Shown one piece after another: positions 6,087 to 45,100 of a DNA stretch of 48,319 nucleotides. Origin of the DNA: a virus. The first letter of the stretch is position 1. Each line of letters starts with the position of its first letter. A program made the translations under genes and the position numbers. A model generated the notes under the pieces. It worked only from the letters and a program-made list of their open reading frames with translations, had not been told where the DNA came from and did not search any database. The DNA lies in the IMG/VR virus record IMGVR_UViG_3300012931_000005, positions 1 to 48,319 of that record. One strand, given 5' to 3'.

Positions 6087-6096
6087 ATATAACTCC

Positions 6097-9000
6097 TTAC
6101 ATATAGTAGGCTTTTGCATCAATAGCCACTGTGTCACTAAACGGAGATATTTGGAGCTTATTGTCCGCTACACGTATATAACTACTCATGTCTGCACCTG
6201 CAAGGTGTGCAAGTGTATCTATTACAGTTCCTTGACGCAGGTATAAATACACTGAACCTTCACTGCCTCCAACCGTATAGCGATAAAGGTAGACGAGTCC
6301 GAAAGTAGAAGTAACTGCAGCAAAATCGATCAATGTCGTCCATGTAGAGCCTAAAAGACCTGTTATCTCACACCGTAATGCGGGCCCTTGCACTCCCTGG
6401 GCTCCAATTACTCCTTGGTATCCTTGTGGTCCGCCATACGATCCCTGGTAGCCCTGATTCCCTTGCGGACCTAAAGGTCCGATGGCTTGCCCCCAGGCCA
6501 GGATCAACGTTCCTGTCTGCCCGAAGATATATGTGTTGTTCGATGGAGTGCAAACAATGGTCTGCGCTGAGGGAAACGTAAGTGTAGAGTCCCACCCGTA
6601 GACTGTTATTTCCGAAGCTCCAGTACGCTTTGCGTATTTCAATGTGCATGTTATGTACGATGGAGTGTAAGGGGCCCCTGGAACGTAGTAATGTACTATA
6701 CTTGACCCTGAGAACGTCATCACATCATTCACATTCGGGAGGCTCGCGGAGATCGCGTTATATAGCTCTGAATAGTACGGATTCAAGATTACTGTATTTC
6801 CGAAGTTGATAACCGTGCCTTGCACACCTTGAGGGCCTAAGTATCCTTGAGGACCAGCAGCTCCAGTAGCTCCTTGAACACCGACATCTCCCTGCGGACC
6901 ACCGGAACCCGTCGCACCTACGCCACCTTGAACTCCAATATTTCCTTGAGCACCCTGTGCTCCGGAAGCTCCGACCGCCCCTTGATTCCCTTGATATCCT
7001 TGATAGCCGCGAAGGCCTTGTGCCCCGACTACGCCCTGCGCTCCTTCGGCTCCTGTGTCGCCCACCGCACCCTGAACTCCTTGGACTCCACGAGAACCTA
7101 TGAGAACGATGGTCCAGTCCGAATACGCCCCGGTCCCTTCGACATAGGAAACCGCAACCTGCAACGTCGTGCTCGAGTACGACGTTATAAAGCCTTCCAT
7201 GAAGTTCTCCGGAGCCGCAGTACGTGAAATCCGTACCGGAGACCCGACTTGAAGCGCCGATTGACTCGCCGTCACGGAGACTGTCAAGGTCTTCGTGCCT
7301 GTAGCAACGAACAACGAAGAAGCGCTCGACAACGGACCGGGGGCATTTCCCTGGTTCCCCTGATCGCCTTGTACTCCGGAAGCTCCGAGACCTCCCTGAT
7401 TGCCTTGCTGTCCTTGTGCCCCCTGAGATCCAACAGCACCTTGATTCCCTTGATTTCCTTGTGTTCCTGCTTGTCCTTGAGCTCCTTGGTAACCTTGATA
7501 CCCGCGAGAGCCTTGAACGCCAACGGAACCTTGATAACCTTGGTAGCCTCGAGACCCCTGCGTTCCTTGGTTCCCGGCTGCGCCTGTCGCGCCTTGACTC
7601 CCCTGATAGCCGAGGACACCTTGATATCCTTGATTGCCTTGGTTGCCTTGAGCTCCGGAAGTGCCTAAGACACCCTGGTTGCCTTGGTTGCCCTGCCCGC
7701 CCTGCACCCCGATTGAACCCTGATGTCCTTGATTTCCTTGTGCTCCTATGACTCCTTGAGTTCCTTGATAACCCTGATTCCCAAGAGAACCTTGAACTCC
7801 GGAAGCTCCCTGATAGCCTTGGTAGCCGCGCACACCTTGCACGCCTTGGTTCCCGATAGCGCCTATCGTACCTTGATTTCCCTGATAGCCGAGGACTCCT
7901 TGATATCCTTGATATCCACGGCTTCCTTGATTGCCCTGACTGCCGACAGAACCTTGACTGCCTTGCGCTCCAGTTGCTCCAGTTGCGCCCTGCGCCCCGG
8001 TCGTACCTTGAACGCCAACATTTCCCTGATAGCCTTGAGGGCCTATATCGCCTTGAGCTCCAAAAGTGCCTTGATCTCCTTGATTTCCTTGAGCGCCAGT
8101 TGCTCCTTGAGCCCCTGCTACTCCTTGGTTACCCTGAGCTCCTGTCACACCTGTACTTCCGTCGCTTCCTGCAAAGCCCTGATTACCTTGAGCACCAACA
8201 GCACCCTGATGTCCTTGACTTCCCTGGGTACCTTGCGGTCCTCCGGTCGTACCTTGATAGCCTTGAGGCCCCGTTCCTCCAAGGACACCGTTCACCCCTT
8301 GAACGCCCTGATTGCCTTGAACACCTTGATATCCATCACTTGGTCCTTGGAGACCTTGGTTCCCCTGTGTCCCCTGGACACCGATCGTGCCTTGTGTCCC
8401 TTGATCTCCTTGCGCGCCGATCTTACCGCTTGATATCTGCTTATAAAGTGCCGTGCGCTCTTCTGCGCTAAGGACGTAACCGTATTTACGGAACTCATCG
8501 ATATCGCCGACGGTGTACGTGGTCGAGTTTCCTCCCGCGATATATCGCATTAACGATATAGCCGCTGAGGTATCCCAGTCTGTGTATGCCAACGTTCCGT
8601 AACCACGCAACACGTCGTCCATATACAGAGTCACCAGTTCCGTCGCAGAAACAAAGGTCAGCACCGCAAAGTGCCACACGTCTCGAGAAACGTTGTTCAC
8701 TGTCGCGTAGAACTCAAGGCCTGACGCCGTTCGGTTGACAATGCCAACTGCGTTTTCAGTCGACAACCGCGCAAGGCCTAAGCCGCGAGCACTTGCGTAC
8801 CCTCCAAAAATGAATGTGTGCCCCGTCGTGTCCCAGGTGTACGAACTCGGAATCTTGAACCAAATGCACATCGAGAAATCTGAACTTGCGCTTGGATGCA
8901 GCGGTGTCACAATGCGACTGGTCGTCGCGCCGCTAAACTGGAAGCCTTTTCCGCTAACAGATTTCACGCTTGTCGGAGAGCCCTCGATTGTTCCATGATT

Positions 9001-10230
9001 GAGACTTCCTGAAAGATCCTTTGCTGTTCCGTCGTCGAAAGAATAGAAGGCTTCCAAAAGATCGTCTCGCGGCCAGACACCCGAGGACCCTAAGACGCCT
9101 TGACTTCCCTGATTGCCTATTGTCCCTTGAGTTCCGACGTGCCCCTGATTGCCTTGATAGCCCTGATAGCCTTGATGCCCCTGGTTGCCTTGATAGCCTT
9201 GGTAGCCTCGAGACCCCTGGACACCGGCTGCACCTATCGTGCCTTGGTTGCCCTGAGCCCCTATACTTCCCTGATATCCTTGATGGCCTTGGTTGCCCTG
9301 AGCTCCTGTCTCTCCGATATGCCCTTGAGGTCCGAGACCTCCGGTATTTCCCTGGTCGCCCTGGTTCCCCTGCGCTCCTTCGGCTCCTGTGTCACCTAAC
9401 GTGCCTTGAATACCTTGGTTTCCTTGAGAACCTTGATTGCCTTGATAACCAAGCGCGCCTTGGTTGCCTTGACTACCCTGATTGCCTTGAGATCCCTGAA
9501 CACCAGTCACGCCTACGATGCCCTGATTGCCCTGAGCACCAACATTCCCTTGATTTACCTGATTGCCTTGAGATCCCTGAACTCCTGTTTCACCAACTTG
9601 TCCTTGAGGCCCGAGACCTCCGGTCGCACCAGTGAGACCTTGAGTTCCTTGCACTCCGGCAATGCCTTGCGCTCCCGTTTCACCAACCTGGCCCTGAAGT
9701 CCCTCAGCTCCTTGCGTCCCAACGATACCTTGCTCACCTTGCGTTCCCTGTACACCAAGGATTCCTTGAGTCCCTTGTGCTCCGACAGGCCCCTGCGGAC
9801 CTTCAAACCTGACGCCTTCCGAGAAGGTCGCTCCATAGTCGCAACTTACGCGCAGATAGATGTCGCTTGACGCATACTCCGTATGCCAAGATGCTCCGTC
9901 CTCGGAATACTCAAAAACGATCCCTACACCTCCGACCTCAAACGGCGCAGACCACACTCCCACGAGGTGGTCTTCCGCATTGCGTTTTCCACGGCTGGCC
10001 CAAAGCTTATCCGTACCTGAAGGGGGCGCACTATACCACCCTATGGGTGTATCACCAGTCGGCGTCGCCGGAGCCGAGGAGCTTCGAATGTAGATGAAAT
10101 CGAGCCAAGCTCCAACAAGAACCTTATGTGTGCCTGCACCCTCGGGCAGTACGTCTGCCTCAAAGTCGTACTCGTGCTCCAGTGCAAAGGCTTCGATGAG
10201 ACGCCTAAGGCGAACTGCGTCGAGGGCCAT
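6097..10230 (-). CDS. Giant collagen-like tail fibre with LamG-like domain
   Basis: The product is 1377 residues from ATG 10230, with GAGGAG eight bases upstream. Residues 1-145 are a globular N-terminal region, probably the virion attachment part. Gly-X-Gln collagen-like triplets (GNQGYQGNQG) fill about 146-390, 602-963, 1043-1140 and a short block near 1250-1285. The first two blocks are separated by a LamG/concanavalin-like domain at 390-600 (LEAFYSFDDGTAKDLSGSLN, DVWHFAVLTFV, GDIDEFRKYG). A beta domain occupies 963-1043, and other globular parts lie at 1140-1250 and 1285-1377. Triplets carry Gln or Thr in place of Pro, so the trimer would rely on Gln/Thr contacts. LamG domains bind sugars, so receptor binding is inferred. 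Interruptions include one Gly-to-Val triplet. Confidence 0.95.
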   Translation of the reverse strand: MALDAVRLRRLIEAFALEHEYDFEADVLPEGAGTHKVLVGAWLDFIYIRSSSAPATPTGDTPIGWYSAPPSGTDKLWASRGKRNAEDHLVGVWSAPFEVGGVGIVFEYSEDGASWHTEYASSDIYLRVSCDYGATFSEGVRFEGPQGPVGAQGTQGILGVQGTQGEQGIVGTQGAEGLQGQVGETGAQGIAGVQGTQGLTGATGGLGPQGQVGETGVQGSQGNQVNQGNVGAQGNQGIVGVTGVQGSQGNQGSQGNQGALGYQGNQGSQGNQGIQGTLGDTGAEGAQGNQGDQGNTGGLGPQGHIGETGAQGNQGHQGYQGSIGAQGNQGTIGAAGVQGSRGYQGYQGNQGHQGYQGYQGNQGHVGTQGTIGNQGSQGVLGSSGVWPRDDLLEAFYSFDDGTAKDLSGSLNHGTIEGSPTSVKSVSGKGFQFSGATTSRIVTPLHPSASSDFSMCIWFKIPSSYTWDTTGHTFIFGGYASARGLGLARLSTENAVGIVNRTASGLEFYATVNNVSRDVWHFAVLTFVSATELVTLYMDDVLRGYGTLAYTDWDTSAAISLMRYIAGGNSTTYTVGDIDEFRKYGYVLSAEERTALYKQISSGKIGAQGDQGTQGTIGVQGTQGNQGLQGPSDGYQGVQGNQGVQGVNGVLGGTGPQGYQGTTGGPQGTQGSQGHQGAVGAQGNQGFAGSDGSTGVTGAQGNQGVAGAQGATGAQGNQGDQGTFGAQGDIGPQGYQGNVGVQGTTGAQGATGATGAQGSQGSVGSQGNQGSRGYQGYQGVLGYQGNQGTIGAIGNQGVQGVRGYQGYQGASGVQGSLGNQGYQGTQGVIGAQGNQGHQGSIGVQGGQGNQGNQGVLGTSGAQGNQGNQGYQGVLGYQGSQGATGAAGNQGTQGSRGYQGYQGSVGVQGSRGYQGYQGAQGQAGTQGNQGNQGAVGSQGAQGQQGNQGGLGASGVQGDQGNQGNAPGPLSSASSLFVATGTKTLTVSVTASQSALQVGSPVRISRTAAPENFMEGFITSYSSTTLQVAVSYVEGTGAYSDWTIVLIGSRGVQGVQGAVGDTGAEGAQGVVGAQGLRGYQGYQGNQGAVGASGAQGAQGNIGVQGGVGATGSGGPQGDVGVQGATGAAGPQGYLGPQGVQGTVINFGNTVILNPYYSELYNAISASLPNVNDVMTFSGSSIVHYYVPGAPYTPSYITCTLKYAKRTGASEITVYGWDSTLTFPSAQTIVCTPSNNTYIFGQTGTLILAWGQAIGPLGPQGNQGYQGSYGGPQGYQGVIGAQGVQGPALRCEITGLLGSTWTTLIDFAAVTSTFGLVYLYRYTVGGSEGSVYLYLRQGTVIDTLAHLAGADMSSYIRVADNKLQISPFSDTVAIDAKAYYM

Positions 10231-10232
10231 TC

Positions 10233-10850
10233 TCAATACTCCTCTTTCCCCAAGTACAACATCATCCTCGATGTCGTTCCATATCCTACTCCTTGTGCAC
10301 GTAACACTAATAAATGTGTCCCACGTTCGAGCGTGACAAACGTTGTGCCCGTATCCGCTATTGCAAAGTTTCCGTCCTTCGACGAAGAGAGATACCCGTT
10401 TCGTATATTTTCTGTCACAACTACGGCATTATGAGTTGGAGATGCTGCGTCGGTAAAACGATTTTTCAAGCGCTTAGTCTGAATGCTGGAATTGAAGTCT
10501 ATTGCAAGTGTTGTCTGTGCTTCCATTATTAAATATCTTTCCGACGCCACCACAAAGCATGCCTCGAGTGCCCCGCAGTACTCAGCCCTATCACCTTCGC
10601 CGTCGCTATAACGAATTACTCTGTAAGGCACCTCTTCAGAGTCTTCGAAATTGGTAAATGTATCGGTTTCATAGGCTGCGTAAAGCGTATTCCCGTCCGA
10701 AGACGCATCGTCCTCATCTGCCTCATAGGCATCCTCCATATGCAGTGCAAGGGCCTTGTCGCCTCCGGCTTCGTCACGCGTTGTGTACAACGTGAACTCC
10801 GTGTCGACTCCTTTTACCTGTACATGAAGAACGTATTCCGAAACGCTCAT
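10233..10850 (-). CDS. Hypothetical virion protein upstream of the collagen-like fibre
   Basis: The product is 205 residues. ATG 10850 follows AAGGAG and its stop lies two bases before the fibre start. It is acidic, with a run of Asp/Glu near residues 35-60 (EDAYEADEDDASSDG), and is largely beta-strand-like, ending in THLLVLRAQGVGYGTTSRMM. There is no signal or membrane segment. The position between the 190-residue protein and the fibre suggests a baseplate or fibre-attachment component. No family was recognised. Confidence 0.8.
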   Translation of the reverse strand: MSVSEYVLHVQVKGVDTEFTLYTTRDEAGGDKALALHMEDAYEADEDDASSDGNTLYAAYETDTFTNFEDSEEVPYRVIRYSDGEGDRAEYCGALEACFVVASERYLIMEAQTTLAIDFNSSIQTKRLKNRFTDAASPTHNAVVVTENIRNGYLSSSKDGNFAIADTGTTFVTLERGTHLLVLRAQGVGYGTTSRMMLYLGKEEY

Positions 10851-20814: not shown

Positions 20815-21351
20815 TTAGTCCGAGAGCTCCCAGTCCTCGGCGAGGGCGTCGGACACGCTCGGCGCCCAGGGGACGAGGTCGCCCTGGGCCGAGAAGAGCA
20901 CAAGATACGGCCGATAGGTGATCGTGGTCCCGACGGGTATCTTGTGAGCGGCCGCGGTCGGTTCGTTCGCCGGGACTCCGTCCGGGTATCCCTTCATCCT
21001 GACCACGTACTGCCCGCGGCCGTTCCAGCCCGCACGGCGGACGCGGGCGCCCTGCTTGAGAAGCTCGAGCGCGCGGCCGAAGGAGAGTCCCTCGTCGCGC
21101 TGCTCCTCGTAGGTGGCCACGAAGACGTCCGGCTTGCAGGGGTAGAATTCCCCCTTGATCTCGCGGATGACGTAGTCGTACGTGCTGATCTTCATGTCTC
21201 CTTCGAGGGTCTTCGCAGCGTAGTAGGTAAGGCCGTTCTCCGTCACCGTGTCGAGGGCCTCGCCCATGAAGGCCTTGAGCTCACAAATGCTCTCAGGTGT
21301 TCCAGTGTACTGAATCGCTTCGACGACGACGCCTTTCTTGCGATACTGCAT
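20815..21351 (-). CDS. Tad2-like (DUF2829) protein fused to a phage N-terminal domain
   Basis: The product is 178 residues; AAGGAGG precedes ATG 21351. Residues 1-85 match a domain common in phage proteins (MQYRKKGVVVEAIQYTG to GEFYPCKPDVFVATYEE). Residues 90-178 match DUF2829: LSFGRALELLKQGARVRRAG, WNGRGQYVVRM, then ITYRPYLVLFSAQG and DLVPWAPSVSDALAEDWEL. DUF2829 is the Thoeris anti-defence protein Tad2, which sequesters the 1''-3' gcADPR signal. Whether this copy keeps that activity is unknown. It opens the leftward arm next to a palindromic operator-like site (21367-21392), so it may be made early. Confidence 0.8.
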   Translation of the reverse strand: MQYRKKGVVVEAIQYTGTPESICELKAFMGEALDTVTENGLTYYAAKTLEGDMKISTYDYVIREIKGEFYPCKPDVFVATYEEQRDEGLSFGRALELLKQGARVRRAGWNGRGQYVVRMKGYPDGVPANEPTAAAHKIPVGTTITYRPYLVLFSAQGDLVPWAPSVSDALAEDWELSD

Positions 21352-21366
21352 CCTAGGCCTCCTTGG

Positions 21367-21392
21367 CTAAGTCCCAGTGTACAAGGACTTAG
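21367..21392. promoter_or_regulatory. Operator-like palindrome before the Tad2-like gene
   Basis: CTAAGTCC (21367-21374) is repeated as its reverse complement GGACTTAG (21385-21392) with a 10-base spacer. It lies 16-41 bases upstream of the start at 21351, ending just before the ribosome site. The half-site matches the core of the CCTAAGTCCTTATG element found at two other places, which suggests one shared DNA-binding protein. Confidence 0.5.
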
Positions 21393-21400
21393 GCCTGCGG

Positions 21401-21643
21401 TCAAGGGCAACGAAAGAGGGGGCATAGTCGGACATGGGAGTCGCTAGTTTGACCTTGCGGTTCCCCCACGCGCGCCAGGACACTTTTCCCGTCAGGGCCA
21501 CCGAGAGACTGCGGCTCAGGTAGATCTTGGCTCCAAGGCCTCAAGGTGCCCCGAGGTTGCGTCCATGCGTCGAGGGGTCTAAGTTCCCTTGGTCCGCTCC
21601 GCGGACCGCGTGGCGCCTCAGGAATCACGATCTCAGAAGCCAT
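21401..21643 (-). CDS. Possible 80-residue Pro/Arg-rich protein
   Basis: A frame from ATG 21643, with GGAGGG five bases upstream, runs to TGA 21401. The product is Pro/Arg/Gly-rich (PEAPRGPRSGPRELRP) and lacks obvious structure. It fills the gap between the Tad2-like gene and the AT-rich control region. Several inverted sequences here (for example GGTCCC-TCC-GGGACC at 21646-21660) could mean that it is non-coding instead. Confidence 0.3.
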   Translation of the reverse strand: MASEIVIPEAPRGPRSGPRELRPLDAWTQPRGTLRPWSQDLPEPQSLGGPDGKSVLARVGEPQGQTSDSHVRLCPLFRCP

Positions 21644-21831
21644 AGGTCCCTCCGGGACCAAGGCATCGGAGCTCCTGGGGCCGCCTTCGGGCGGCCAAGA
21701 ACACCGAGACACCTAAAAGGCCGCGAAGTTTGACACAAAGGGCCCTAAGTGTCATGCGCCAAAGCGTTCCAGATGCGCCAAAGCGCATCGAATGCACCAC
21801 AGATCACTGTGCGCGAAATCCTGCATCCGAG

Positions 21832-22116
21832 TTTCTAGTCTTTTTCTAGAAATTTCTAAAAGTTTCTAGTTGACCTAAGTCCTTATGTCATATACGCCTA
21901 AGGCGTTTTTCTAGTTTTTCTAGTCTTTTCTAGAACTAAGACCCCACACACTCTCTAAGCGTCATTACGTACACTGTATTGATATACACCTGTCTATTTA
22001 CTTACACATGCCAGTCCGCACTTTACTAGAAATCCTAGAAATCTCTAGAAATCGCCCAAAGTCTCGCACCACAAGCACTTAGACACTAGAAATCGTTTTA
22101 GAAATCTCTAGAAATC
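21832..22116. repeat. Helically phased TTTCTAG/CTAGAAA repeats in two opposed arrays
   Basis: Six exact TTTCTAG copies (starts 21832, 21843, 21863, 21908, 21917, 21927) and one variant TTTCTAA (21853) form the left array. The right array has CTAGAAATC at 22026, 22035, 22045, 22086 and 22108, plus TTAGAAATC at 22098. Within clusters the copies are 9-12 bases apart, about one DNA turn. The gap between clusters is 38 bases on the left and 32 on the right. The orientation flips around a centre near 21980. This looks like an iteron or operator array. Confidence 0.85.
21863..21891 (-). promoter_or_regulatory. Candidate leftward promoter with CATAAGGACTTAGG element
   Basis: On the minus strand ATGACA and TAGAAA are separated by 17 bases. 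CATAAGGACTTAGG (21874-21887) overlaps the end of the -35 box and the spacer, as in the candidate at 12622-12650. The -10 box coincides with one TTTCTAG repeat, so a repeat-binding protein could control it. Confidence 0.4.
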
Positions 22117-22183
22117 CCAGGCCACCTTGGTCCTTGGTCCTTGGTGCTTCGCAAACCTTGTGCCAACTCGCCTCAAAAAAAGC

Positions 22184-22205
22184 GTCCAAAAATAGTTTTT
22201 AGGAC
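22184..22205. terminator. AT-rich hairpin in the control region
   Basis: GTCC plus five A pairs with five T, one bulged A and GGAC around a 3-base loop. The T run lies in the right arm. It could be a weak bidirectional terminator or an attenuator ahead of the first rightward gene. Confidence 0.35.
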
Positions 22206-22251
22206 TTGCAAAGTTCCGGAAAACCAGGCTAAGTTTGATTTCGTCGCACAG

Positions 22252-22270
22252 AAAGCGCGAAAAACGCTTT
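22252..22270 (+). terminator. Hairpin AAAGCG/CGCTTT upstream of the first rightward gene
   Basis: A 6-bp stem with a 7-base A-rich loop is followed by TCAGG with no U tract beyond the stem. It may regulate the leader of the rightward arm. It is included because the leader carries two such structures within 90 bases. Confidence 0.3.
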
Positions 22271-22330
22271 TCAGGACGTTGGAATACGGCCCCAGGCCGC
22301 AAATACACTCCAGCGCCCACGGAGACTAAG

Positions 22331-22585
22331 ATGCCCAAGAACACCGAGACGAAGCCCACCTCCAACACGCAGCCCATCGCCATGGCCCCCACCGCTCCCC
22401 AGGTCCTCGAGGCCGCGCTAGGTCAGTATGGCCTCATCGCCGCTCTCAAGAAGACCTTCTCGACAGGCAGCGTGGGCTACTACGGCAACGGCAAACTGGC
22501 GATCGAGGGACAGATGTACCAGGTCGCCCTCACCGCCACACTCATCGGTTCCAAGCCCACCGCGAGCCAGGACGCCAAGGCCTAA
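22331..22585 (+). CDS. First rightward gene, hypothetical 84-residue protein
   Basis: ATG 22331 (MPKNTETKPTSNTQPIAMAP) follows GGAGA. The first 25 residues are Thr/Pro-rich and probably flexible. The rest is a small mixed domain (VLEAALGQYGLIAALKKTFS, GSVGYYGNGKLAIEGQMYQV). It is separated from the next gene by a strong hairpin. As the promoter-proximal gene of the early arm it may act on the host or on early control. No family was recognised. Confidence 0.75.
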   Translation: MPKNTETKPTSNTQPIAMAPTAPQVLEAALGQYGLIAALKKTFSTGSVGYYGNGKLAIEGQMYQVALTATLIGSKPTASQDAKA

Positions 22586-24378: not shown

Positions 24379-25041
24379 ATGTCTATTACTAGGTACAAGC
24401 TCACCGATCAGGACATGCGCACGTACAACGGGTTCCAGTGGACGCTAGGAGTTAAGGCGTCCGTCGAGGGGGACGACAAGGAGCTATGCTCCGCATCGTG
24501 GCTTCACTGCTACGATGATCCCGTATTAGCGCTCCTGCTGAACCCGATCCACGCAAACATAGCCGTCCCTCGGCTGTTCGCCGTTAGGACGGAGGGCAGG
24601 GGCCTTAACGATAGAGGACTCAAGCGTGGGTATAAGGCAATGACCTTAGTGAAGGAACTACCACTACCGAATGTAACGTGGTCAGTACGGACGGCGTTCG
24701 GCATACTGTGCGCTATGGAGGTGTACAAAGTCCCCGCGTGGAACCGGTGGGCGCAGGCTTGGTTGAATGGAATGAATAGGATCGACGTCTACGCCGCCGC
24801 CAACGCCGCCGCCTATGCCTACGCTGCCGCCCGCGTCTACGCCAACGCCCGCGCCAACGCCTACGTCAACGCCAACGCCGCCTATGCCCGCGCCGCCGCC
24901 TACGCCGCCTACGCCGCCGCTGACGCCGTCCGAGCCACCCGCGCCGCCGTCTACGCCGCCCACGCCGCCGCTGACGCCGCCGCCGCTGCTACGCTGCCTT
25001 TAGTCCAACTAGCGAACTCTGCGTTAGCCTACGCCAAATAG
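24379..25041 (+). CDS. Phage protein with Ala/Tyr/Asn repeat tail
   Basis: The product is 220 residues with AAAGGAGG before ATG 24379. Residues 1-135 match a family often met in phage genomes: YKLTDQDMRTYNGFQWTLG, a WLHCYDDPVLALLLNPIHAN segment and KELPLPNVTWSVRTAFGILC. Residues 137-200 are repeats built from Ala with Tyr, Asn, Arg or Asp at about every third place (AAYAAYAAADAVRA). The repeat DNA is almost pure GCC codons. Similar Ala repeats occur in some predicted immunity proteins. Function is unknown; the repeat resembles a long amphipathic alanine helix. Confidence 0.8.
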   Translation: MSITRYKLTDQDMRTYNGFQWTLGVKASVEGDDKELCSASWLHCYDDPVLALLLNPIHANIAVPRLFAVRTEGRGLNDRGLKRGYKAMTLVKELPLPNVTWSVRTAFGILCAMEVYKVPAWNRWAQAWLNGMNRIDVYAAANAAAYAYAAARVYANARANAYVNANAAYARAAAYAAYAAADAVRATRAAVYAAHAAADAAAAATLPLVQLANSALAYAK

Positions 25042-25606: not shown

Positions 25607-25939
25607 ATGGACATATTCGTCGTCGAACGCATTCATAAGCGTGCCTGGCCGGAGTCGCACTTCTTCGACACCACGGTGCTGAGACTGCGGCACCTGACAC
25701 AAGCTGACTTCTGTGTTACGGCAGCCGACGTCGACCTTGACGATGGAGCGACTCCTATTTACATGGTACGCGCCCCAGTACGAAATCTGACCCGGTACTT
25801 CGACCCAGAATCCGGGGCCTTGGAGCTGACCGCCGACGCCGCCCTTGGCCGGCGCGCTGAAAAGCTCGAGAGTCACATTTTTACGACTTGCGCCAAAGGC
25901 GGAAGCGTGATACATTTTTCGCAAAGGAGAAACCGATGA
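25607..25939 (+). CDS. Hypothetical 110-residue protein before SSB
   Basis: AAGGAG precedes ATG 25607. It is mainly beta (VLRLRHLTQADFCVTAADVD, IYMVRAPVRNLTRYFDPESG) with a basic end. Its stop overlaps the SSB start. Coupling to SSB could mean a role in DNA metabolism. No family was recognised. Confidence 0.7.
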   Translation: MDIFVVERIHKRAWPESHFFDTTVLRLRHLTQADFCVTAADVDLDDGATPIYMVRAPVRNLTRYFDPESGALELTADAALGRRAEKLESHIFTTCAKGGSVIHFSQRRNR

Positions 25940-26271
25940 ACAGTCTGAACAGCATTCTTCTTGAGGGCGCTTTGACGGCGGACCCGGAACTCAAGGACCT
26001 CTCATCCGGTACGCAGGTCTGCAACTTCACCGTCGCGTGCGGCAGGTTCTACAAGCGGAACGACGAGAGCGAGGAGGAAGTGTCGTACTTCGACGTCGAG
26101 GCCTGGGCGAAGCTGGGCCTCGTCTGCGCGCAGAACCTCAAGAAGGGCAGGGGCGTCCGCGTCATGGGCCGTCTCAAGCAGGATCGCTGGCAGGACTCCG
26201 AGGGCAAGTCGTGCTCCCGCGTGATAATCGTCGCGGAGCACGTCGAGTTCAAGCCGCAGAAGAAGGAGTAA
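25936..26271 (+). CDS. ssb: Single-stranded DNA-binding protein
   Basis: The product is 111 residues; GGAG precedes ATG 25936. It has an OB-fold SSB pattern: MNSLNSILLEGALTADPELK, an NFTVACGRFYK strand, VSYFDVEAWAKLG, then GRGVRVMGRLKQDRWQDSEG. It lacks the usual acidic tail of bacterial SSB, ending in Lys/Glu. It coats single-stranded DNA at the fork and in recombination. The DUF669-like protein at 35058-35489 may be a second ssDNA-binding protein. Confidence 0.85.
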   Translation: MNSLNSILLEGALTADPELKDLSSGTQVCNFTVACGRFYKRNDESEEEVSYFDVEAWAKLGLVCAQNLKKGRGVRVMGRLKQDRWQDSEGKSCSRVIIVAEHVEFKPQKKE

Positions 26272-27264: not shown

Positions 27265-27290
27265 ACGGGGCATCTAGTACGGTGCCCCGT
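27265..27290 (+). terminator. Intergenic hairpin, possible terminator
   Basis: ACGGGGCA (27265-27272) pairs perfectly with TGCCCCGT (27283-27290) around a 10-base loop. No U tract follows. It lies in a 105-base gap with no gene, so it could tune expression between two early genes. Confidence 0.45.
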
Positions 27291-27356
27291 ACGGCCGCTC
27301 AGTGTCGCCTCCACGTGGCGCGGCTGGAACAACCAAGACACCAAAGGAGACTTCAG

Positions 27357-27866
27357 ATGACGCTTACCAAGATGCTGAAAGAGGCTATCGAACGGAAGGT
27401 GCTCACGCTCAAGTATGAGGAGCGAGAGAGCAAAATGGAGAATGAGCTTGCAGCGATCGTAGAGGGGATAATCGCCAAGCAGTCCGAGGGCCTGCCGCTT
27501 AAGGAGTGCTGCGAGTACGTCGGGACAGGATCGACCGGGAGAATCCTCGGCGACGGTATTTACAAAACCGTGAGACTCTCGAAGCCGTACCCGATTAAGT
27601 GCGGCGAAGGCTATCCGACCGTCGCGCCATGTAAAGAGATCAAGGCGAAGCTCCACGAGATCGAGCTACTCAAGAGGGAGCGCGAAGAGTCGAAGCGCCT
27701 CGTCCGACAGATTCTCAATAGCTGCAATACCGCGGAGCAGCTCCTCGAGGCGGCGCCTGAGATCGCGCCTTTCGTCCCCGAAGAGGACCAGGCGTGCAAG
27801 GCTCTTGTCCCTATAGGCAATATAACAAAGGTTCGACAGCTGCTTAAAAATATCTCAAAGGACTGA
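27357..27866 (+). CDS. Possible Nmad5-like protein
   Basis: The product is 169 residues; AAAGGAG precedes ATG 27357. The start MTLTKMLKEAIERKVLTLKY and a middle KEIKAKLHEIELLKREREES resemble the putative nucleotide-modification-associated domain 5 family of phages. A short insertion with Cys (KECCEYVGTG, YPIKCGEG) is present. The match is weak and rests on the first 30 residues. It could be a DNA-modification accessory protein or an unrelated helical protein. Confidence 0.6.
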   Translation: MTLTKMLKEAIERKVLTLKYEERESKMENELAAIVEGIIAKQSEGLPLKECCEYVGTGSTGRILGDGIYKTVRLSKPYPIKCGEGYPTVAPCKEIKAKLHEIELLKREREESKRLVRQILNSCNTAEQLLEAAPEIAPFVPEEDQACKALVPIGNITKVRQLLKNISKD

Positions 27867-37349: not shown

Positions 37350-37419
37350 GGCCGAACTTGGCGCCCTCGTCGTGAGTGCCTTCCTGTTGCTTCTCGCCGC
37401 GTTCAACCTCCACTTCTAA
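37327..37419 (+). CDS. Thirty-residue membrane micro-protein
   Basis: ATG 37327 has GGAGG seven bases upstream. The product, with hydrophobic segment LGALVVSAFLLLLAAF, is a likely single-pass membrane peptide. Its stop lies eleven bases before the polymerase ATG and overlaps its ribosome site. The good ribosome site makes translation likely. Confidence 0.5.
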   Translation: MPRQRPNEAELGALVVSAFLLLLAAFNLHF

Positions 37420-37429
37420 GGAGCCCCAT

Positions 37430-40153
37430 ATGCGCTACACGCGCACTAAATCGACATGCACCTTGTGTCCGTTGCGCGATCGCCGCCGCGTCTGGAGCGA
37501 AGTCCCCGATGGCGACGTCCGAATCGCGGTTGTTGCCGAAGCGCCCGGTGAGGCCGAAGCCCACGAAGGCCGACCGCTCATCGGCCCCGCAGGCAGTCTC
37601 TGGATGAAGGCCCTCAAGGAGAATGGCATCAACCGCGCCGGTCTCTGGGTCAGCAACGTCGTCTGCTGTCAGCCACCGCACAATGACATGCGCAGCTTCG
37701 AAGGCGTCGACGCCTTGGCATGCTGTACCCCAGGCTTTGAGGCAGAACTCAAAGCAATGAAGGCCCGAGGCGTCAAGATCGTCGCCTTGATGGGCAACGT
37801 CGCCCTCAAAGCAGCCGGTTTCGAAGGCAGCATCTCGACGATGCGTGGCTCCGTCTACGAGAAGGACGGAATGCTCTTTGTTCCAACGTTGCATCCGAGC
37901 GCGGTCCTTCGTGGCTCTGGAGCGAAGCGTGACGGCTCTGGCTACCAGGACCTTGGCGTCTTCATCCACGACTGGGGCAAGATCAAGGACATCGCAGACA
38001 ACGGTTGGACCCGCATTCGAGAGGACTTCAACTTGGAGCCATCTCTTGACGACTTGCGCGCCTTCGTCAAACGTGTCACTGCGAAGAAGACCCTTCTCTA
38101 CGCAGACACCGAGACAACAGGACTCAAGTGGTCTCGAGGCGCACGTGTCGTCGTCCTCGGGCTTGCCGAGTCCGCAACCAAAGCCATCAGCATCCCGTTC
38201 CTGAAGGAGCACGGATTCCCTTACTGGAACGGCCACTCCGACGAAGTACATGCCCTTGTTCAGTCCGTCTTCGACAACTGTCCGATCGTATTTCAGAACT
38301 GCTTCTTCGACGTGCCATTGCTCCGACGCGCCGAAGGCTTTCGAATCGACGACGCTTCGATTGCACACGACACCCTCGTGCTGCATTCGCTTGTCTCACC
38401 TGAGACGCGGCACGATCTCGCCTTCATCACGTCCGTCTACGGCAAGACTCCTGAATGGAAAGAGGTCTTCAAGAACCGCGACAAGGGCATCCTCGAGATG
38501 GACCAGATCGAGATGCGTCGATACAACCTACGCGATTGCGTTGTCTTGGCGCAGATACTCCCTTCGATGCTTGCGCATCTCGAGAAGCTTGGTCTAACGC
38601 AGTTCTACAACGAGGAGACAAGGCGTCTCATCGGACCCTTGCTTCAGATGTCTGAGGCCGGTATCACCTTCGACGTCGAACACCTCGAAAAGTTCGATTT
38701 GCTACTGGATCGGTCCTTGGCCGAGAAGCTTGCTGAGATCCGTGAGGCCTACGCCCTGCCTGCGGAGTTCGACTTCGGCAGCGACGAAGAGCTCCGATAC
38801 TTCTTGTACGGAATCGTACCGGCGAAGTTCCGTCAGCTTCGAGGTACCTTGGTCCGCTACACGAAGCACCTCAAGTCCGGCGACCGCGCAGATTCGAAGT
38901 TTTTCCAAGGCGTTGCCCTGCGTACTCTGAAGCATAATATCCCCGAGGCTGATGTTCTCGGCGTCGAAGAAATCGCGTCAACTTCTGTGAAGCGTCCTGG
39001 GACCGCAGCTTACGAAGAACTCCACAGACTCGAAATCGTCCGCGACTTCTGCAAAGCCAAGTACACCCTATCGTCTTGGTCTCCGCTGAAAACTGACTCA
39101 GGTCTTGCGGGCGTCGGGGCCGAGGCACTACTCGCATACACCGTGCAGCTTAACAACAGGCTCGAGTCCATCGCAGCCCTCGTTCATCCTGAGAAGTACG
39201 AAGACGAAGTCTCTTCGATCGAAGATGTCATCTCATTTATCGCAGACCTTGGACAACTGTCGGAGCTTCAGAAGCTAAAGTCTTCCTTCACGAAGTACAT
39301 CGTCGATCCTGATGGGCGCATTCGTGCCTCGTGGAACATATGGGGCACTGCTACAGGAAGACTCAGTTGTAGTCGTCCAAACCTGGAGCAGCTCCCAGAG
39401 CACGGCGTCGGCAAGCAGGTCCGAGGCTTCTTCAAGGCCAAACCGGGCTACAAGCTCGTCTCGTCGGACGGCGAGAACCTTGAGGTCGCACTTCTAGGCT
39501 ATGACTCCCTCGATCCGACAATTATCGACGCCTACGTTAATGGCAAAAACATTCACGACCTCAATACGAAGATTCTCTACGACATCGGCCCAGAGCATCC
39601 GTACTGGAAAGAAGGGCGTGCCGCGGCAAAGAAGTTCCAGTTCGGCGGTATGTCCTACGGTGGCGGCGACAAGAACGTCCATCGAAAGATGGTCGTCGAG
39701 GCGCCGCACTTGCCGCTCACTCTGGCCCAGTATCGCGAGGCTAAGGCTCGTTGGCTCGAAGCACATCCGGCCTATGTCAAGTGGCGCGCCACCGTTGAGG
39801 CCGACGTCACCTCGACGCGCATCGTGCGTAACGCCTTCGGGCGCATTCGAATCTTCTTCGGTAAGCCGCGCGACATCGTCCGCGAGGCAATGAACTTCCG
39901 CATTCAAAGCGCTGGCGCCTGTCTCATCAACCGCGCTATGATCCGCGTTTACGACGAAGTCAAACGCCTCGGACTCGATGCGACGTTCGTGTTGCAGATC
40001 CACGACCAATTAATACTTGAGGTTCGCGAGGACCAAGCGACTGAGGTCGCCGCACTCCTGAAGCGCGAGATTGAGCGCCCCTTCGTGATGCACGGCATCG
40101 AACGCTTTGTGCGCGCCGATTCGACGATCGGAGACACCTATGCCGACGTTTGA
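37430..40153 (+). CDS. Uracil-DNA glycosylase fused to family A DNA polymerase
   Basis: The product is 907 residues from ATG 37430 behind AAGGAG. Residues 1-190 are a family-4 (Fe-S) uracil-DNA glycosylase: CTLCPLRD, VAEAPGEAEAHEGRPLIGPA, a VVCCQPPHND segment and TLHPSAVLRG. A DEDDy 3'-5' exonuclease follows (LYADTETTGLK near residue 223, RRYNLRDCVV near 364). The polymerase domain has motif A (VSSDGENLEVALLG), motif B (AAKKFQFGGMSYGGG) and motif C (LQIHDQLILEV, near 857), where the usual HDE is HDQ. It replicates the genome and may excise uracil at the fork. Confidence 0.9.
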   Translation: MRYTRTKSTCTLCPLRDRRRVWSEVPDGDVRIAVVAEAPGEAEAHEGRPLIGPAGSLWMKALKENGINRAGLWVSNVVCCQPPHNDMRSFEGVDALACCTPGFEAELKAMKARGVKIVALMGNVALKAAGFEGSISTMRGSVYEKDGMLFVPTLHPSAVLRGSGAKRDGSGYQDLGVFIHDWGKIKDIADNGWTRIREDFNLEPSLDDLRAFVKRVTAKKTLLYADTETTGLKWSRGARVVVLGLAESATKAISIPFLKEHGFPYWNGHSDEVHALVQSVFDNCPIVFQNCFFDVPLLRRAEGFRIDDASIAHDTLVLHSLVSPETRHDLAFITSVYGKTPEWKEVFKNRDKGILEMDQIEMRRYNLRDCVVLAQILPSMLAHLEKLGLTQFYNEETRRLIGPLLQMSEAGITFDVEHLEKFDLLLDRSLAEKLAEIREAYALPAEFDFGSDEELRYFLYGIVPAKFRQLRGTLVRYTKHLKSGDRADSKFFQGVALRTLKHNIPEADVLGVEEIASTSVKRPGTAAYEELHRLEIVRDFCKAKYTLSSWSPLKTDSGLAGVGAEALLAYTVQLNNRLESIAALVHPEKYEDEVSSIEDVISFIADLGQLSELQKLKSSFTKYIVDPDGRIRASWNIWGTATGRLSCSRPNLEQLPEHGVGKQVRGFFKAKPGYKLVSSDGENLEVALLGYDSLDPTIIDAYVNGKNIHDLNTKILYDIGPEHPYWKEGRAAAKKFQFGGMSYGGGDKNVHRKMVVEAPHLPLTLAQYREAKARWLEAHPAYVKWRATVEADVTSTRIVRNAFGRIRIFFGKPRDIVREAMNFRIQSAGACLINRAMIRVYDEVKRLGLDATFVLQIHDQLILEVREDQATEVAALLKREIERPFVMHGIERFVRADSTIGDTYADV

Positions 40154-41621
40154 GCGCCCAAAGGCCTTCGTCATTCCGCCTGACGCAGGGCTCGTCACCG
40201 AGCCCGAGGATGCCCTCGTGCCCGAAGGCACCTGGATTGCGGACTTCGTCGCCTCAATGCGCGGCATCGAAACGCCGACCATCTTCACCTTGTGGGGTGC
40301 CTTGTGGGCTTTGTCGACCGCATCAGCACGCGAAATTGGCTTCGAGTGGCTCGAGGACGAGCTCTTGTACCCGAACTTGTACGTGATTCTGGTAGCGCCT
40401 CCGGCTCGATGCCGCAAATCGACTTCGTTGCGACATGCCTTCAAGGTCCTTGAGCGCCTCGCAGAGACCTATGTCCCTGATCCGGATGACCCAGACCTCG
40501 AGACGACGGACCTTGTCCTGGAGCAGCTCGCTACCTTCAACTGGGCTACTTCGAAGACGACGCCTGAAGCTCTCGAAGTGCTTCTCGAACCGCCTCCGAC
40601 GATGAACCTTCACGGGCGCGATGGGCTAGCGCTTTTCGACAAGGGCTCTCAAGTTTCGCTTCTCGTCTCGGAGCTGACGACATTTCTTTCGAAACGTAAG
40701 TACATGACCGGAATGATTGATACCTTGACCGACCTCTACGACTGCCCAGAGCGCCATTCATACAACACCATCGCTCGCGGAAACGTCATCCTCGAGAAGG
40801 TCTACTTGACATTCATCGGAGCAACGACGCCTACGTCACTCAAGGACGCCTTGCCTCCCGAGGCCTTCGGTGAAGGCTTCATGTCACGAGTCTGCGTTAT
40901 CTTCAAGGAGACGACGCTGCGACGCTTTTCGAAGCCAGTGCACCTCGACGGATTCCCAACGATCGAGGAACTCGCCATACGATTGGCCTACGTCATACGA
41001 CACGCAATTGGTGAGCCTTACCGAGAGACGCCTGAGGCCGAGGTCTGGTTCAATTCTTGGTACAACGTCTGGAAAGACACCTTAGAGGCCGACGATGGAT
41101 ACGTAGATCGTACCGGCGAGTATCGATTCGACGTTATGATTCGACGCCTGGCACTCTTGATCGCCATTTCACGCTACGATCGCGACGCGCACGTTATCGA
41201 CGTCCTCGACTACGAGCAAGCGAAGGCTCTTCTCGAAGGCTCCTACCGTAGCGCAATGCCGCAGACACAACGTCTTGCTGCAGCCGAAGGCTTCCAGACT
41301 CATTACTTGACCATTCGCAACTACATCAACAAGAAGGCCGTCGACGGCAAGATCGAACGTCGCAAGATCCTATCGTACATGTCCTCCACTGGAGTAAGCT
41401 CCAAGGAGGTTGACACTGTTCTGTCTCAACTCGAAGACGAAGGAGCTATATCATGTCTCGAAAGCAACAAGGCCCGGACAAAAAAAGGCGAACTGGCCTA
41501 CCGAATCGTAAGCAGCGACAAGGAGTCCTTCCGCGGACCGACGCCACAGGCACCCAGGTCGACAACCTCGGGCGTCGCACCACAATCCTTGAGCGCCTTG
41601 GCCTCGGGCGAGACGATCTGA
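40140..41621 (+). CDS. DUF3987-like P-loop protein, candidate helicase or primase partner
   Basis: The product is 493 residues from ATG 40140, overlapping the polymerase end by 14 bases. A P-loop VILVAPPARCRKSTSLRHA lies near residue 93, with an altered glycine-rich loop. LLVSELTTFLSKRKYMTGMI, LTDLYDCPERHSYNTIARGN and YLTFIGATTPTSLKD match phage DUF3987 proteins, thought to be replicative ATPases or helicases. The C-terminus looks like a winged-helix (VLSQLEDEGAISCLE) and overlaps the next gene by 169 bases. It probably works with the polymerase. Confidence 0.8.
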   Translation: MPTFERPKAFVIPPDAGLVTEPEDALVPEGTWIADFVASMRGIETPTIFTLWGALWALSTASAREIGFEWLEDELLYPNLYVILVAPPARCRKSTSLRHAFKVLERLAETYVPDPDDPDLETTDLVLEQLATFNWATSKTTPEALEVLLEPPPTMNLHGRDGLALFDKGSQVSLLVSELTTFLSKRKYMTGMIDTLTDLYDCPERHSYNTIARGNVILEKVYLTFIGATTPTSLKDALPPEAFGEGFMSRVCVIFKETTLRRFSKPVHLDGFPTIEELAIRLAYVIRHAIGEPYRETPEAEVWFNSWYNVWKDTLEADDGYVDRTGEYRFDVMIRRLALLIAISRYDRDAHVIDVLDYEQAKALLEGSYRSAMPQTQRLAAAEGFQTHYLTIRNYINKKAVDGKIERRKILSYMSSTGVSSKEVDTVLSQLEDEGAISCLESNKARTKKGELAYRIVSSDKESFRGPTPQAPRSTTSGVAPQSLSALASGETI

Positions 41622-42145
41622 TTGTCCTCTACAAGGAACTCGGCACGTTTGAGGACGTTGCGACGCGAGTTGGTGTCACAGACCGGACGGTGCGGAATTG
41701 GTTCAGCGCTTTCGGCCTATGCGGAACTCGAAAGAAGCCGCATACGTCCCTGCGCGCGCAGACCTCGTGCGTGTCGGACTGGCTCAGAGCGCACCCGGAC
41801 GCGCAACTACCTCGGTCCGTCGTTAAGTGTGCCGAAATGATGCAGCTCAAGCCCGCGGCGGTCGAAGCCTACATCGAGCGCCGTCGCAACCGGGTCCGGG
41901 ACTACGTATCCGGGCTTGGCGATCTTCGTCAGTACCCAAAAGTCTTCGTGGCCAAAGGAACCACGAAGAATGTCCATGTGCCTCCGAAGGCGATCGCGGA
42001 CTATACCTTGGCTGTCGATCGTTGGACTCTGATCGTCACATACGAAGGCGTCCTGAAGGCCAAGGTAAAGTTTAGCCTTGAGCTGCCTTACAAGGATGCC
42101 ATTCGTTTTTGGCACGAGGCTACGGAAACAGACGCGTCGAAGTAG
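41453..42145 (+). CDS. Helix-turn-helix DNA-binding protein
   Basis: The product is 230 residues. ATG 41453 has AAGGAG seven bases upstream and lies 169 bases inside the previous gene in another frame. A basic Arg/Lys-rich N-terminus is followed by an HTH (TFEDVATRVGVTDRTVRNWF) near residues 66-88. A second basic helix (AVEAYIERRRNRVRDYVSG) and a beta-rich end follow. It may bind the TTTCTAG or CTTAGG elements. The last 26 bases overlap the end of the convergent 1508-residue gene. Confidence 0.75.
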   Translation: MSRKQQGPDKKRRTGLPNRKQRQGVLPRTDATGTQVDNLGRRTTILERLGLGRDDLIVLYKELGTFEDVATRVGVTDRTVRNWFSAFGLCGTRKKPHTSLRAQTSCVSDWLRAHPDAQLPRSVVKCAEMMQLKPAAVEAYIERRRNRVRDYVSGLGDLRQYPKVFVAKGTTKNVHVPPKAIADYTLAVDRWTLIVTYEGVLKAKVKFSLELPYKDAIRFWHEATETDASK

Positions 42146-45100
42146 CTCTAAGGACTGGGGCGCCCGAAAGGACGATCGCTGCGTTCTTGACGTCGCCCTG
42201 ATCCAGGTAGCCAAAAGCCTTAATGAGCTGCTTCCCGAAGGCGTACCCAGGACTTGAGACGCGCAACACAGAGTCCAAGAAGGTATTGCGTGCCATCTTT
42301 GCAGTCAGATCGGTTCCGAGTAGCGAGGTCCCGTCAACAAGCAGTGACCATCCAGGTCCACCTTGGAACCCAAACGGGTCCGTCCACTGGAAACCTTTGT
42401 AGTCGATCCCGGCGAGTTTGAAGGCCTCGTAGGTGGCGGTCGACGTCGCTATGAGGCGCGTCATCATTCCGATGCGCTCTCCGACGTTGCCAGTCGTGGC
42501 CATCTTGACATAGAGCGCTAAGGACGACGACGGGTACGTCATGAACTTTCCGAACAACTTGCCCAGAGTGCCACGCCCGACCATAGGCTTTGCTACCTTG
42601 GAGTAGTCGAACATCGTCAAGGCCTGGGTTGCGTTGGCAAAGACGTCGATTCCGACGTCGTCAGTGCCTGAGGCCACAGCCTTTAGGATCTGATCTTGTT
42701 CCTGAACGTTCAGAACCCCGAGATGCGTCTCGCGCGCGAAACCCCTGAGATCGATCGTACCCGCGCGCAGTCTTGCAGCGGCGCCTACGTACTGCTTCTC
42801 TGCAGTCGACCACGCGACCGCGCGCGTGAAAACGTCCATGTTCTCGTTCCAGCGCATCATGCGCTGCCAGACACCGAGGTCGCGCTTCATACGTTCCGTA
42901 GGAAGTCGCTCTGCGACAGCGCCGGAGCGTGTCATACGTCGCACAATTGCGGTGTATTTGGCCTCGTCGTTCACAAGCTCATGGGCAACTTTCCAAGGCA
43001 GCGAAGTTCCATGGACCGCGCTCAAGAGATTGATCTGGAAGAAGTTCCTCAGTGGTGCCCAAGGCTTCGTGGCCTGCGTTGCGATCGTCATCTTATGGTT
43101 TAGACGGTCCAGTACCAGCTCGGGAGATGCTCCAGCGTCTACAAGTCCACGTAATATTGGCGTCTTCTTGCATACCGCTAGGAACGTGTTACCCATGCGA
43201 CGTTGCGCCTCAGCCATCATGGCATCCGAATTGGTCCTCGGAGCTCCGTGCAGTTCGAGCATAGTGTCGCCTACGAGACGGACCGAAGCCTTTGAAAAGC
43301 GATGCTCGCCCTCAAGCAGCGTGTCAACTTGCGCCTTTGTGTTGCGCAGTACCGGCTCCAGGTAGGCGTGCCTGAACACAGACCCGGTATAGGCGTCAGC
43401 TATTTCGCGCGCGTCTTCGAGAAGGGCAAATCGAATGAGGTCCGAGGCACGGAGCTTCTCAGCGAACAGTGCAAAGTCCGTCGGCGCATTGCCTTTGAAC
43501 GTTGCGCGCACCAGCTCTGCGGCGGCCTCCTCAGAATTGAGAAAATCCGGATTCTCCTGCACGAACTGCCTTATGCGCGGAATGTAGTCCGTTACATGCT
43601 TCCAGGCGTCGATGCCTGAGACGCGCTTCAGCTCATCGTACACGGTGCGCTGCGCTGCAATGATGCCCTTGGCCTTCTCTGGCATAGCCTCGCCAAAGAC
43701 CGCCTGCCATCTCGAAGAACGGACTGATTCAGGCCACTGCGACGCTACAGTGATCTTGGTCCCAAGCTTTCGGTCCATGTCGCCGAAGGCATTGCGCCAG
43801 ACCGGGTCGAAACTGGCCCGTGCCCCGTCGTAAAAGCGCACCGCGCTTCGGATAGAGCTGTACGCTTGTGACAGAGCCTTGTCTCCTACGAGACGTGCCT
43901 CGTCCGAGAGCGCCATCGCGGGCGGCGCCAGGAAGCTCTCCAGCGTTATGCGCGCCCGCAGGGCCGCCTTTCCGAACTCGGTCTTCGGGGGAGCTGCGAT
44001 CTTCGACACAACGTCTGCGACCTGTGTTTCGATCTCGCGCGTAATGTTCTCATCGAAGCCTAAGACGTCCTGCATCCACGTCGGCATCGGAGTCGCGGCA
44101 TGCCAGGCCTCGAGTTCTGCCAACGTGCCAAAAGTCTTCTCGACACCTGAAGGCCCGATGAGCGCAATACGTCCGTCACTGAGATAATCTTGCTTGAACC
44201 CCTTCAGCGAGGACGCGGTCTCCATCTCAATCAAGGTGTCCTGACGTCGCTCGAGAGCTTTCTTGACGCCGCTAACGCTTCGGAACGTCTCACTTGTTCC
44301 AAGACGCGCATTCTCGTAGATGTAGCCGACCTTCTCGACCTTAGCCAATGTGGCGCCCTCGAGCGTTGAACTTATCAGCGTTCCTTTGCGCGCGCTCGAC
44401 TTGAAGCTCGACAGGAACTCCAATGCCTCGGCGCTCGAGCCTTGGATAACGGTGTCCTGAAGGATGATCTTTCCGGCACCAGGGTCCAGGGCGACCATGC
44501 GCGGCGCCAGACTGGCTGGGAGTCTGATGTCGATCTCTGGATGGCGCTCCATGATCTCGGCCAACGACTCTCCGGAATCGAGCATTCCGAAGGTCGTCTT
44601 TCCGGACTTGGCGTCACGGGTGATGCCTCCGACTTCCCAACGAGTCACGGTCTGCGACGTGGTCCCAGGCACGGCATACTTCGCTGCATTACTGCCTTCG
44701 CCAACGATCGGAACCTCGACACGACGCACGCTAAGCCCTGTGTCCTGCCTCACCAGTGTTCCGATATGGTCCGGCGAAATGCGCCCGGTCTGCACGAGCA
44801 TGTCGTACAGCTCATAGTTGGCCCATTCCAACGTCGGGAACTCATGTACCTTGCCGCCGATTGTAACTGCGGTCTTTCCGTGTCCAAGGTCGCGTAACGT
44901 GGCTCCGAGCTGAGACTCTGCGACATATGCGAGGCCTTCGAAACTTGGACTGCGCATTGTGGACTTCGCAGGCGCGATCGTGGCGAGAAACTTCGTCGCA
45001 AGACTTTGCGCCTCGATGTCGTCCATTGTTCCGCCTGCAATCTTACGGATCGAGTCCAGCTGCCTCATAAGGCTTTCGCTGAACTGCTTCTCGGCCTCGA

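Follow-up and report, generated by a model that had tools for sequence, protein, structure and literature searches.

Opposed, phased heptamer clusters between the divergent gene arms of a podovirus probably mark where viral DNA copying starts

Few uncultivated phages have an identified replication origin. In the lambda origin and in the origins of iteron plasmids, phased iterons lie next to an A+T-rich opening site and the iteron DNA is bent (PMC5043065). In the podovirus genome of phage T7, a heptamer occurs 12 times in the region that separates the terminase side from the early-gene side; its copies read CCTAAAG, follow one another at a 13-bp step, keep the same orientation on both sides and adjoin the terminal repeat. 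These terminal arrays are named SRL and SRR. Here we analyze a 48,319-nt stretch of DNA (positions 1 to 48,319 of IMG/VR virus record IMGVR_UViG_3300012931_000005; hereafter, the window) from a podovirus in which clustered copies of the heptamer TTTCTAG occupy the intergenic region between two divergent gene arms, probably where copying of the viral DNA starts.

The locus shares with lambda ori and with the iteron plasmids P1, RK2 and R6K (PMC5043065) its phased short repeats resembling initiator sites (11 exact non-overlapping copies at 9-12-bp steps within clusters), an adjacent A+T-rich, meltable stretch and an intrinsic bend, which is predicted for the left half only. It differs from them in its 7-bp motif of unreported sequence with a 9-12-bp step, in the arrangement of the repeats as two opposed halves around a 92-bp center, in the placement of the repeats neither beside nor inside an initiator gene and in lacking a DnaA box (21352-22331 contains no site within two mismatches of TTATCCACA). 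DnaA boxes near iterons are usual in plasmids and are not a defining feature of a phage origin such as that of lambda. Clusters of DnaA boxes of the oriC type, beside an AT tract and in the same intergenic region, are absent from the window but occur in two relatives described below. The T7 arrays resemble the window in the number of heptamers and in their genomic position, whereas the step of about 13 bp and the single orientation that characterize T7 are not seen here. The original prediction that no known system uses the TTTCTAG motif is not contradicted by the literature, as a full-text search of open-licence papers for TTTCTAG with phage and repeats returned nothing relevant.

The window has a GC content of ~58%; an overlap of 123 bp between its ends, located elsewhere than the array, closes it. 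As had been predicted, leftward and rightward genes flank a non-coding stretch at ~21.4-22.3 kb; the two arms converge head-on at ~42.1 kb (Table 1). The leftward arm comprises the TerL, portal, capsid and tail region genes, and the rightward arm encodes SSB, a PD-(D/E)XK exonuclease, an AAA/Sak4-like ATPase, a UDG-exonuclease-polymerase, a primase-helicase and a helix-turn-helix (HTH) protein. Domain matches of this last protein are to HTH only; its AlphaFold2 model (pLDDT 73) shows a pair of HTH units plus a beta domain, and a PDB fold search with the model gave nothing significant. DNA comparison of the window with phage records yielded only short matches, all inside the Tad2-like gene. Elsewhere in the window, the protein of 27282-27866 has an Nmad5 (nucleotide modification associated) domain (E 9.8e-10), that of 24379-25041 joins a DUF7666-like start to a long low-complexity tail rich in Ala, Tyr and Asn, and a leftward 1379-aa ORF (6097-10236) is dense in short repeats at 7500-9500 (ATCAAGG/CCTTGAT, n = 40; GCCTTGA, n = 47), with steps that are mostly multiples of 9.

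Table 1. Features of the array, its surroundings and the associated genes (positions in the window; steps in bp)
Feature	Position	Strand	Details
First leftward gene	20815..21351	-	Tad2-like (Thoeris anti-defence) domain protein; PF11195, 4.4e-22
Perfect dyad	21366..21391	none	CTAAGTCC-N10-GGACTTAG; half-site like family element; overlaps -10 of leftward promoter
Sole sigma70-like promoter found in intergenic region	21376..21404	-	TTGACC-17-TACACT, 9/12; reads into leftward arm
Cluster A	21832..21869	+	TTTCTAG at 21832, 21843, 21863; near copy TTTCTAA at 21853; steps 11, 10, 10
Candidate copy of family dyad	21876..21900	+	TAAGTCCTTATGTCATATACGCCTA; between clusters A and B; predicted bend center 21894
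Cluster B	21908..21933	+	TTTCTAG at 21908, 21917, 21927; steps 9, 10
Center between opposed halves	21934..22025	none	92 bp, 41% GC
Cluster C	22026..22051	-	CTAGAAA at 22026, 22035, 22045; steps 9, 10
Degenerate, inverted version of the 21876 element	22057..22081	-	CTAAGTGCTTGTG vs CTAAGTCCTTATG; 8/2000 shuffles; low profile score
Cluster D	22086..22114	-	CTAGAAA at 22086, 22108; near copy TTAGAAA at 22098; steps 12, 10
First rightward ORF	22331..22585	+	84 aa, function unassigned
SSB gene	25888..26271	+	PF00436, 5.3e-28
UDG domain, 3'-5' exonuclease and family A DNA polymerase	37376..40153	+	UDG domain N-terminal
DUF3987 primase-helicase	40107..41621	+
Tandem-HTH protein gene	41453..42145	+	Family-wide, just after primase-helicase gene; candidate binder/initiator

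The array proper (21832-22116) is a non-coding segment of 285 bases with a GC content of 36.8% and is thus, as predicted, AT-rich relative to the genome. TTTCTAG or its complement CTAGAAA has exactly 12 matches in the whole window, all within 21832-22114, compared to 3.5 by chance and a shuffle maximum of 10, which answers the concern that the 7-mer might be equally dense elsewhere. One match, at 21846 on the minus strand, overlaps another copy inside the palindrome TTTCTAGAAA, leaving 11 non-overlapping exact copies accompanied by two copies with one mismatch; in 1000 dinucleotide shuffles of 21832-22116 no 7-mer reached more than 5 copies. The twelve copies and 9-12-base steps that had been predicted are therefore borne out, as is the change of orientation at the center: four and three sites (one a near copy) point forward on the left and three and three (again one a near copy) point in reverse on the right. 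The inner clusters B and C lie 92 bp apart around a center at 21979.5, in agreement with the predicted center near 21980 and distance of about 46 bases on either side. From one cluster to the next the step is 45 in the left half and 41 in the right, with gaps of 38 bp and 34 bp; the prediction had the first gap right and gave 32 for the second. Likewise, the proposal that all copies share one face of the helix holds inside each cluster but not across clusters, since phase is kept within clusters and not strictly between them. An identical 16-mer, CCAAGAACACCGAGAC, flanks the array at 21695-21710 and 22335-22350, its right copy lying in the start of ORF 22331-22585.

The physical character of this DNA is extreme for the genome. 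Nearest-neighbor stability has its minimum over the window at the array for both 100-bp and 300-bp stretches (starting at 21840 and 21816, respectively), and in the BMHT wedge model predicted curvature reaches its genome-wide peak between clusters A and B (145 degrees over 125 bp, compared to a genome-wide 125-bp mean of 31 and standard deviation of 17 degrees). A simpler model that considers AA/TT only concurs, giving 127 degrees at 21885; no bend is predicted for the right half of the array. The GC skew, suggested beforehand as a check on origin activity, shows no clean switch at 22 kb and gives no origin signal, and the change in AT skew coincides with the change of gene strand.

Protein homology defines a family with the same layout as the window, consisting of BK063670 (vir526, with polymerase and TerL 40% and 37% identical to those of the window) and about ten IMG/VR contigs. 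The latter were recovered by two-row alignments; as single queries against viral contigs, the window's TerL and polymerase found no relatives, and neither did two scans of genome contigs. The nearest relatives by TerL (L131, L194 and L195; 48%) are contigs that end before the intergenic region. Synteny is common to the family, including the HTH gene after the primase-helicase. In the intergenic region before the terminase genes, vir526, G003, G008, G007, G011, L178, L226 and L227 carry a 25-bp element of dyad form, TAAnTCCTT-N7-AAnGAnTTA. The first of these elements were chosen by eye from TAAnTCCTT. Profiles trained without the tested clade have their best match in the whole genome or contig within the intergenic region of these relatives, and at most 2 of 300 column-permuted profiles did as well (0-2/300 for vir526, G003, G008, G011, L178, L226 and L227). 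L226 and L227 were found later and are the cleanest test. In G010 the dyad is absent from the intergenic region.

Other origin-like features occupy the position of the array across the family. The least stable 50- and 100-bp DNA falls in the same intergenic region, usually as a TATATA tract, in all nine further genomes or contigs that were analyzed. The BMHT comparison covered vir526, G003, G008, G007, G011, L178 and G010; in the last five the region is also the curvature maximum of the genome or contig, or within 0.05% of it, and in vir526 and G003 the maximum lies elsewhere. The control region of vir526 resembles that of the window in synteny, opposed phased repeats, inverted duplication (69 nt), dyad elements and AT tract but differs in the repeat sequence, which consists of opposed pairs of TGCATTTT at an 8-9-bp step.

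The same record (L121 in our numbering) has a near-consensus bacterial sigma70 promoter, TTGACA-17-TATGAT, at 1318-1346. Given this promoter and the bacterial sigma70 type of the promoters in the relatives, we regard the host label of vir526 (Methanomicrobiales) as doubtful and dropped the archaeal host that it implies. Also in this record, a terminator-like hairpin with a T run lies no more than ~130 bp after a TTGACA promoter-like site (42679-42814), possibly a small RNA, and ten 12-bp tandem units containing GCCGCTA lie at 9378-9486, as they also do in L136.

Within the window, the two halves of the array form an inverted duplication of ~95 bp (local alignment score 59, reached by 0 of 1000 shuffles). 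The spacers between clusters are related, with CTAAGTSCTTRTG common to both (8/2000 shuffles), and no significant palindromy was found in the center. The element at 21876 in the left spacer is the best or second-best match in the window of the out-of-sample dyad profiles; because 16 of 300 permuted profiles match it, we grade this assignment as borderline. Profile matches at 6090 and 12636 resemble Shine-Dalgarno sequences and were left uncounted.

The original prediction suggested searching related phages for the same array. When 2.9 million viral contigs were scanned blind for TTTCTAG in phased triples, 22 places came up, of which one, L178, was recognized as a family member, the other arrays being judged by eye; a paired TTTCTAG pattern proved too loose (119 matches, mostly single). 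L178 is a distant relative (TerL 31% identical to that of the window), and upstream of its terL are three TTTCTAG copies at 11-bp steps, one inverted copy, the dyad and an AT tract. Its closest relatives, L226 and L227, have no TTTCTAG array. All five DnaA boxes (TTWTNCACA) of the L178 contig lie in this intergenic region, four of them at 11-12-bp steps. L227, whose TerL is 78% identical to that of L178, has all eight boxes of its 21.8-kb locus there, together with three dyads and an AT tract. These boxes are the most telling sign of an origin in the family; the window lacks them.

An iteron origin, a partition site and a multi-site operator had all been considered for the array. We think it rather likely that 21832-22116 is the core of an iteron-type phage replication origin, a reading favored by the comparison because the least stable DNA, the conserved dyad and, in two relatives, clusters of DnaA boxes come together in the same place. 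It is unlikely, to our minds, that the array instead serves a divergent control region as its multi-site operator, filled by a phage regulator that switches the rightward and leftward arms without a role in replication. Such an operator would fit the position between divergent arms, multiple phased sites suit cooperative repression, and the sole sigma70-like leftward promoter overlaps a dyad whose half-site resembles that of the family element (both within 21366-21404). However, a sigma70-like search found no promoter inside the arrays, the one such site (9/12, 21404-21376) being 430 bp away, and the strong sigma70 promoters of the relatives, where any were found, lie at least 200 bp from the dyads. 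The exception is G011, where one 10/12 leftward promoter-like site (2441-2412) stands beside the dyad at 2383-2407. Nor would an operator require extreme instability, AT tracts or clusters of DnaA boxes.

We hold it improbable that the arrays mark genome ends, flanking a terminal repeat or terminase site for packaging and concatemer processing as the T7 heptamers do. Exact terminal repeats of 810, 234 and 216 bp do occur in the equivalent divergent region of Saffermanviridae, a family whose TerL is distantly similar and whose arms are laid out alike, and five phages of this type are reported to have terminal repeats of 107-234 bp (PMC10140849); T7, too, has its 12 heptamers next to the left terminal repeat. 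Yet the window array has a ~10-bp step and inverted halves where T7 has 13 bp and a single orientation, a packaging site would not be expected to have dyad elements or a cluster of DnaA boxes, and in three Saffermanviridae the stability minimum is not at the ends. Most improbable of all would be a partition site or a purely structural element of bent DNA bound by a host nucleoid protein: the strong predicted bend suits either, but partition is without support since no ParA/ParB-type gene was found among 20 window proteins scanned, and bending alone does not explain exact conservation of the heptamer in the unbent right half.

If the array is an origin, a phage DNA-binding protein would load on the two opposed TTTCTAG arrays, in each of which two phased clusters flank a dyad-like spacer. 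The conservation and position of its gene, right after that of the primase-helicase, suggest the tandem-HTH protein as the most likely candidate for this binder. Loading on one helical face of the pre-bent left half would wrap the DNA, and wrapping would open it within or beside the arrays, where the genome is least stable. Replication would then start with the DUF3987 primase-helicase and the family A polymerase and, we infer, would probably be bidirectional and co-directional with transcription of both arms.

More tentatively, the family origin may combine the conserved dyad with phased arrays that are specific to each lineage, change identity between relatives (TTTCTAG, TGCATTTT or DnaA boxes) and are read by a fast-evolving tandem-HTH protein, which would then represent a new class of initiator; the lineage of the window might have replaced host DnaA boxes with a heptamer of its own. 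Overall, if the array is indeed part of an origin, one intergenic position would locate the replication origin for an entire family of uncultivated podovirus-like phages, a candidate initiator would be named for that family, and origin repeats would be seen to turn over between host DnaA boxes and phage heptamers around a core dyad and meltable DNA that persist.
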